From the NCBI RefSeq assembly GCF_030409055.1, contig NZ_CP116619.1:2643628-2707627 (forward strand): DNA of 64,000 nucleotides. Direction: 5' to 3'. Below, one piece after another: positions 51,104-51,991 of this stretch (its first letter is position 1; every line of letters begins with the position of its first letter). The translations under genes were made by a program, and so were the position numbers. This DNA is from Trichocoleus desertorum NBK24. GTDB lineage: Bacteria; Cyanobacteriota; Cyanobacteriia; FACHB-46. The notes below the pieces were generated by a model. The model saw only the letters and a program-made list of their open reading frames with translations, did not search any database and was not told the DNA's origin.

Positions 51104-51991
51104 ATGGTTAACTCCACACTCCCGCAACTTGAACAAAAAGTTCAGCTTTCTGGCATTAGTTGGCAGACCTATCAAGCCTTGCTGAGTGAGTTGAGCGATC
51201 GCCGTTTGTGCCTCACCTACAATCAAGGCAATCTCGAAATTATGGTTCCATCGCCTGAACATGAGTTCTACAAAACACTCATGGGTCGCTTTGTGGAAAC
51301 CATAGCCGAAGAACTGAAAATCAAAATTCATCCCTTGGGTTCCACCACCTTTGCCCGTGAAGATTTAGGCCGAGGGTTAGAACCCGCTGAGTGTTTTTAT
51401 ATCCGTAACCAAGCTGCTGTTAAAGGCAAAAAGCGGTTAGACCCGACTCAAGATTCACCACCCGATTTAGTAGTTGAAATTGACATCACTAGTAGCTCTC
51501 GCGATCGCATGGCTTCCTATGCAGCTCTAGGTGTACCTGAAATCTGGCGCTACGATGGCAAAGTCTTCCGGGTTTATCAACTGCAAAATCAGGAATATCA
51601 ACTTTCAGAAGCAAGTCTTGCTTTCCCCAATGTTGCGATCGCCGAAATCACCCGCTTTTTAGAACAGTCCGCCACAACCGATTATTTAGTCGTCCCTGAA
51701 AAACCCCCTAATTTTTTAGGCACTCAGACACCGAGCAGCATGGTAGAAGGGGTTCAGCCGGCAAATTCGCGTGGGGCAAGCAAGCGCATCACGAAAAAAT
51801 GCGGCTTTGAGGCTCTTTGGAAACTCTTGGTTTCTCTAGAGTTTGCAAGGGAGTGAGCGTTTTCTTGCAATTTTAAAGGTATTTTAGAGGCTGAAAGCTC
51901 TGATTCTAAAAGGCTGGCGAGGTTTTTCAGGGACGACTATTTAGATCTTGTAGCCGCCTTTCGAGATTGGCTCAAAGCTCAGGTGCAATAG
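51104..51991 (+). pseudogene. Uma2-family (DUF820) gene split by a 249-bp insertion element
   Basis: The open frame 51104-51856 (250 codons) starts as a good Uma2 protein ('GISWQTYQALLSELSDRRLC', 'FYIRNQAAV', 'SPPDLVVEIDITSSSRDRM', 'YAALGVPEIWRYDGK'), but its last 55 residues come from an inserted element. Past the element the true Uma2 C-terminus is found in the same frame: DLVAAFRDWLKAQVQ, stop at 51989-51991. Taking out 51689-51943 (255 bp, 85 codons) restores a continuous 210-residue protein. The chimeric protein keeps the catalytic core and may still fold, so it could be active or not. Confidence 0.85.
51689..51937. mobile_element. MITE-like element, 249 bp
   Basis: Terminal inverted repeats of 17 bp are perfect: GTCGTCCCTGAAAAACC (51689-51705) and its reverse complement (51921-51937). 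It is bounded by a 6-bp direct repeat TATTTA (51683-51688 and 51938-51943), the target-site duplication. No transposase fits in 249 bp, so it must be moved in trans. Interruption of the Uma2 gene confirms it as an insertion. I know of no named element with these ends. Confidence 0.93.

Follow-up and report, generated by a model that had tools for sequence, protein, structure and literature searches.

A 249-bp MITE with the ends of IS5_1-type insertion sequences in an Uma2 gene of Trichocoleus desertorum NBK24

Near its 3' end, an Uma2 gene in the 64,000-nucleotide stretch of DNA analysed here (the window) is interrupted by a short element that carries no transposase and is bordered on each side by the same six bases. 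The features of the locus are as follows.

51104-51688, plus strand: Uma2 (PF05685) coding sequence before the insertion, 195 codons
51683-51688, no strand: left copy of the target duplication TATTTA
51689-51937, plus strand: MITE, 249 bp, without transposase
51689-51705, plus strand: left terminal inverted repeat, GTCGTCCCTGAAAAACC
51689-51800, plus strand: left arm, conserved in the MITE family, in no full-length IS found
51707-51720: small hairpin CCTAATTTTTTAGG in the left arm
51831-51937, minus strand: right arm, like the 5' end of IS5_1-type IS as far as the transposase start codon
51921-51937, minus strand: right terminal inverted repeat, exact reverse complement of GTCGTCCCTGAAAAACC
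51938-51943, no strand: right copy of the target duplication TATTTA
51944-51991, plus strand: displaced Uma2 3' end, DLVAAFRDWLKAQVQ and stop

The inverted ends of the element match at 17/17 bp in the window sequence and TATTTA stands on both sides, confirming the perfect ends and perfect target duplication reported in a first-pass annotation of this DNA. As that annotation had noted, the element is too short for a transposase, and the sole reading frame within it, in the ORF list of the window, is the overrunning Uma2 frame. The present Uma2 ORF enters the element and reaches a stop at 51856, giving 250 aa, whereas excision of 255 bp (the element and one duplication) restores a 210-codon Uma2 frame ending in ...TTDYLDLVAAFRDWLKAQVQ and a stop; the restored frame had likewise been noted there. 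The gene has thus kept 195 codons, lost 15 and gained 55 from the element. The Pfam Uma2 domain match finishes at residue 173, upstream of the insertion point, and therefore only the C-terminal tail of the protein would be altered.

Comparison with two other genomes of the genus uncovered the empty site for which the first-pass annotation had suggested looking in sister strains. In one of these (G002, locus L149), the Uma2 orthologue is uninterrupted and shares 92% amino acid identity across 209 residues, the flanks align on both sides, and the site reads ACAGACTATTTAGATCTCGTGGCTGAA with a single TATTTA, compared with ACCGATTATTTAGATCTTGTAGCCGCC when the window flanks are joined without the element. 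This is the expected pre-insertion state. G002 also carries two truncated relatives, one of the MITE and the other of an IS in the NBK24 genome that is described below.

The first-pass annotation had proposed a search for further copies both in this genome and in its relatives, and these were found in the relatives only. The NBK24 genome (5.46 Mb, single contig, 99.99% complete) holds the exact 17-mer at just two places, both being the ends of this element, and no second copy of the whole element. Outside it, searches of 390 sampled cyanobacterial genomes with the element itself and with sequence-only models of both arms recovered a family of nearly constant length, mostly 249–252 bp, scattered across genomes of several cyanobacterial families and sharing 50–71% whole-length identity with the window copy. 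Right-arm matches occurred in 25 of the 390 genomes and left-arm matches in 17; since the right-arm set includes some full IS, and the left-arm set a few weak matches that look like chance, we place the MITE in about a dozen of the sampled genomes. Copy number ranges from the single copy in NBK24 to between three and about nine related copies in G134, G221 and G203: three copies, 99% identical, lie at different sites in G134, four family copies are present in G221, and six or more, including near-identical ones at different places, occur in G203 (Leptolyngbya ULC077bin1). Further full-length homologues of ~250 bp were found in G188, G162, G140, G296 and G012, and plain blastn against a wider sample of the phylum added nothing convincing. 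A perfect duplication flanked 14 of 20 family elements checked (13 of 6 bp and one of 7 bp), mostly conforming to TANNTA. That G134 and G203 each hold near-identical copies at more than one place shows that members of the family have moved in the past, and two perfect ends with a perfect duplication, repeated in related copies, exclude chance as their source in the window. Two variants of other lengths were also observed: a 504-bp family member in G188 (L195 1501-2004) with both arms, an extra core of ~250 bp and a TAGCTA duplication, and a 276-bp element in Cyanosarcina radialis (L124 6688-6963) with a similar right arm and a TAGCTA duplication, the first 36 bp of which hold a near-palindromic repeat of its own end.

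Full insertion sequences that share these ends and have a 6-bp duplication, for which the first-pass annotation had also suggested a search, were recovered as well. The exact 17-mer is present in at least 118 stretches of GTDB contigs from many phyla; among the matches listed, TA precedes 73 of 119 occurrences with a flank and TANNTA 48 of 119, and some of the remainder look like chance matches. Loci that have both ends and a duplication fall into two kinds: elements of 1.4–1.6 kb that contain a transposase gene, and short ones of about 249–519 bp. For example, IS of 1409 bp (L185) and 1545 bp (L054) have these ends and a perfect duplication of TATTTA, and a third of 1597 bp (L079) a perfect duplication of TCAATA; the transposase of the last reaches 512 bits (cutoff 275) with the NCBIfam model NF033578 transpos_IS5_1 and contains the Pfam domains DUF772 and DDE_Tnp_1. 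The 6-bp length is common to the MITE, to these three IS and to the IS in the NBK24 genome. A 2-bp duplication, with TA forming part of the ends, was ruled out, since in copies with TCAATA, GAATTA, TTGTTA or TATTCA, for example, the outer bases are duplicated as well. Outside the cyanobacteria, the same ends occur on a 519-bp element of Candidatus Kuenenia stuttgartiensis that is flanked by a TATTTA duplication (L046 3136-3654), and many contigs of Xanthomonas cissicola end ~110–127 bp from the same 17-bp end (L047, L066, L070, L073, L077, L095, L098, L106, L130), as if the assembly had broken at a repeated IS. One IMG/VR viral contig contains TANNTA followed by the end sequence (L247 2136-2157), and no copies were found in the plasmid and phage collections.

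In the NBK24 genome, 17-mers with up to three mismatches were no commoner than a reversed control, and two of these matches are the ends of a single broken IS (G000:C1:1519619-1526488; L147 620-7489). It has near-identical ends with GAATTA directly on both sides, and pieces of an IS5-type transposase at each end, split by nested mobile elements; judged by eye from their translations, these include an ISL3-like transposase, a reverse transcriptase ORF of the group II intron type and one further transposase-like ORF. No related transposases were found elsewhere in this genome. With its only related IS broken, the window copy is probably without a working mobiliser now, and hence stranded.

The two arms of the MITE differ in their likeness to these IS. 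Read inwards from its terminus, the right arm is similar to the IS5_1 leader as far as the start of the transposase (in G172, for example, ...GCAAAAACTGGTGAAATCATGAGC). A profile built from MITE right arms minus the terminal repeat, ranked against about 2115 sequences, placed six of seven IS 5' ends within the top seven, with G172 the best (E = 1.9e-6), followed by G206 (0.011) and G269 (0.022), other IS being weaker. The 5' end of the NBK24 IS was not among these six: it gave no significant match to this profile beyond the ends and, minus its terminal repeat, scored no better than shuffles, which leaves this IS unsupported as direct parent. The left arm was absent from every retrieved locus with a transposase, and no IS with both arms was found in the 390 genomes sampled. 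Comparisons with IS gave no support to a left arm derived from an IS 3' end.

We conclude, with a probability of about 0.93, that this is a non-autonomous MITE of a ~250-bp lineage that landed in Uma2, very likely moved in trans by a DDE transposase that NCBIfam classes as IS5_1. The relatives with the same ends and duplications, the IS with the same ends and the empty site all bear out the first-pass reading as a MITE, and neither of the results that it had named as refuting was obtained. The transposase would recognise the GTCGTCCCTGAAAAACC ends and very likely mobilised the element in trans; the element would then be inserted where a TANNTA-like site had been cut with a stagger, and repair would leave the 6-bp duplication. 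The right arm may be a former IS 5' end, comprising the terminal repeat and the transposase leader, with the remainder of the IS replaced by a left arm of obscure source and the ~250-bp product spreading as its own lineage. On sequence comparison, the simplest history is an IS leader combined with a left arm that came from elsewhere or whose source has been lost. Insertion into TATTTA near the Uma2 3' end would postdate the split of the host species from G002, the last 15 Uma2 codons being exchanged for 55 read from the element.

A bolder version of this history is possible, though we hold it only tentatively, in which an old MITE lineage has outlived its parent IS, half IS5 leader and half foreign left arm with a conserved hairpin, keeping a constant length while relying, in several cyanobacterial families, on transposases borrowed from a variety of IS5_1 elements.

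Could the element instead be a relic, an IS copy in the NBK24 genome shrunk in place by internal deletion and outside any separately spreading family? Its single copy in the genome and the broken related IS elsewhere would suit such an origin, but ~250-bp full-length homologues with their own duplications in several genera, near-identical copies occupying separate sites in G134 and in G203, the clean empty site in G002 and a left arm that matches no IS make it very improbable. We give equally little credence to an element kept for a function, for instance as a regulatory or RNA module, or because it gives Uma2 a new and adaptive C-terminus. The length stays near 250 bp across families, a CAAG...CTTG motif is conserved in the right arm, and the 4-bp left-arm hairpin shows modest covariation (its count of double changes was reached in 4 of 500 shuffles). 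Against this, target duplications flank the copies as in mobile elements, an Rfam search of the element gave no match near the gathering score, and hairpins adjoining transposon ends are common. An assembly or annotation artefact, for which the single copy number is the only argument, can be dismissed given the single-contig, 99.99%-complete genome, the perfect duplication, the empty site in a relative and the related elements elsewhere.

The locus therefore contains a mobile element that is genuine, if of an ordinary kind, and we regard it with fair confidence as a new MITE family of a known kind, with the anatomy and working of an IS5_1-type MITE. The description of the element as new-looking is plausible: the 16-base end string occurred in no relevant paper of the literature searched, which took in neither ISfinder nor the papers on the Nezha and Anabaena PCC 7120 MITEs, and no published element with such ends is known to us. 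The analysis ties a cyanobacterial MITE family, apparently unnamed, to a named transposase family: the two have their ends, their target preference and one arm in common. The empty site places one insertion in time, within a genus. Across many phyla, the sites used by IS5_1 elements with these ends are 6 bp long and TANNTA-like, a pattern that should also aid the annotation of the elements' boundaries.

Among known systems, the MITE is closest to IS of the IS5 family NF033578 transpos_IS5_1 (DUF772, DDE_Tnp_1), with which it shares the 17-bp ends, the 6-bp duplication, the TANNTA preference and, in its right arm, a resemblance to their 5' end; it differs from them in its length of 249 bp, its lack of a transposase and a left arm that comes from no IS found. 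The type element IS5 makes a duplication of 4 bp, compared with 6 bp here. In accounts of Nezha (PubMed 18035045, cited in PMC10969869) and of the MITEs of Anabaena sp. 90 (PMC3542288), these elements are likewise short and non-coding with terminal inverted repeats, and lie both between and inside genes, producing pseudogenes; the likeness to Nezha is one of description. The Anabaena sp. 90 MITEs were described as type II, without similarity to IS ends in that genome (PMC3542288), whereas the MITE in the window shares its ends with IS5_1 elements.
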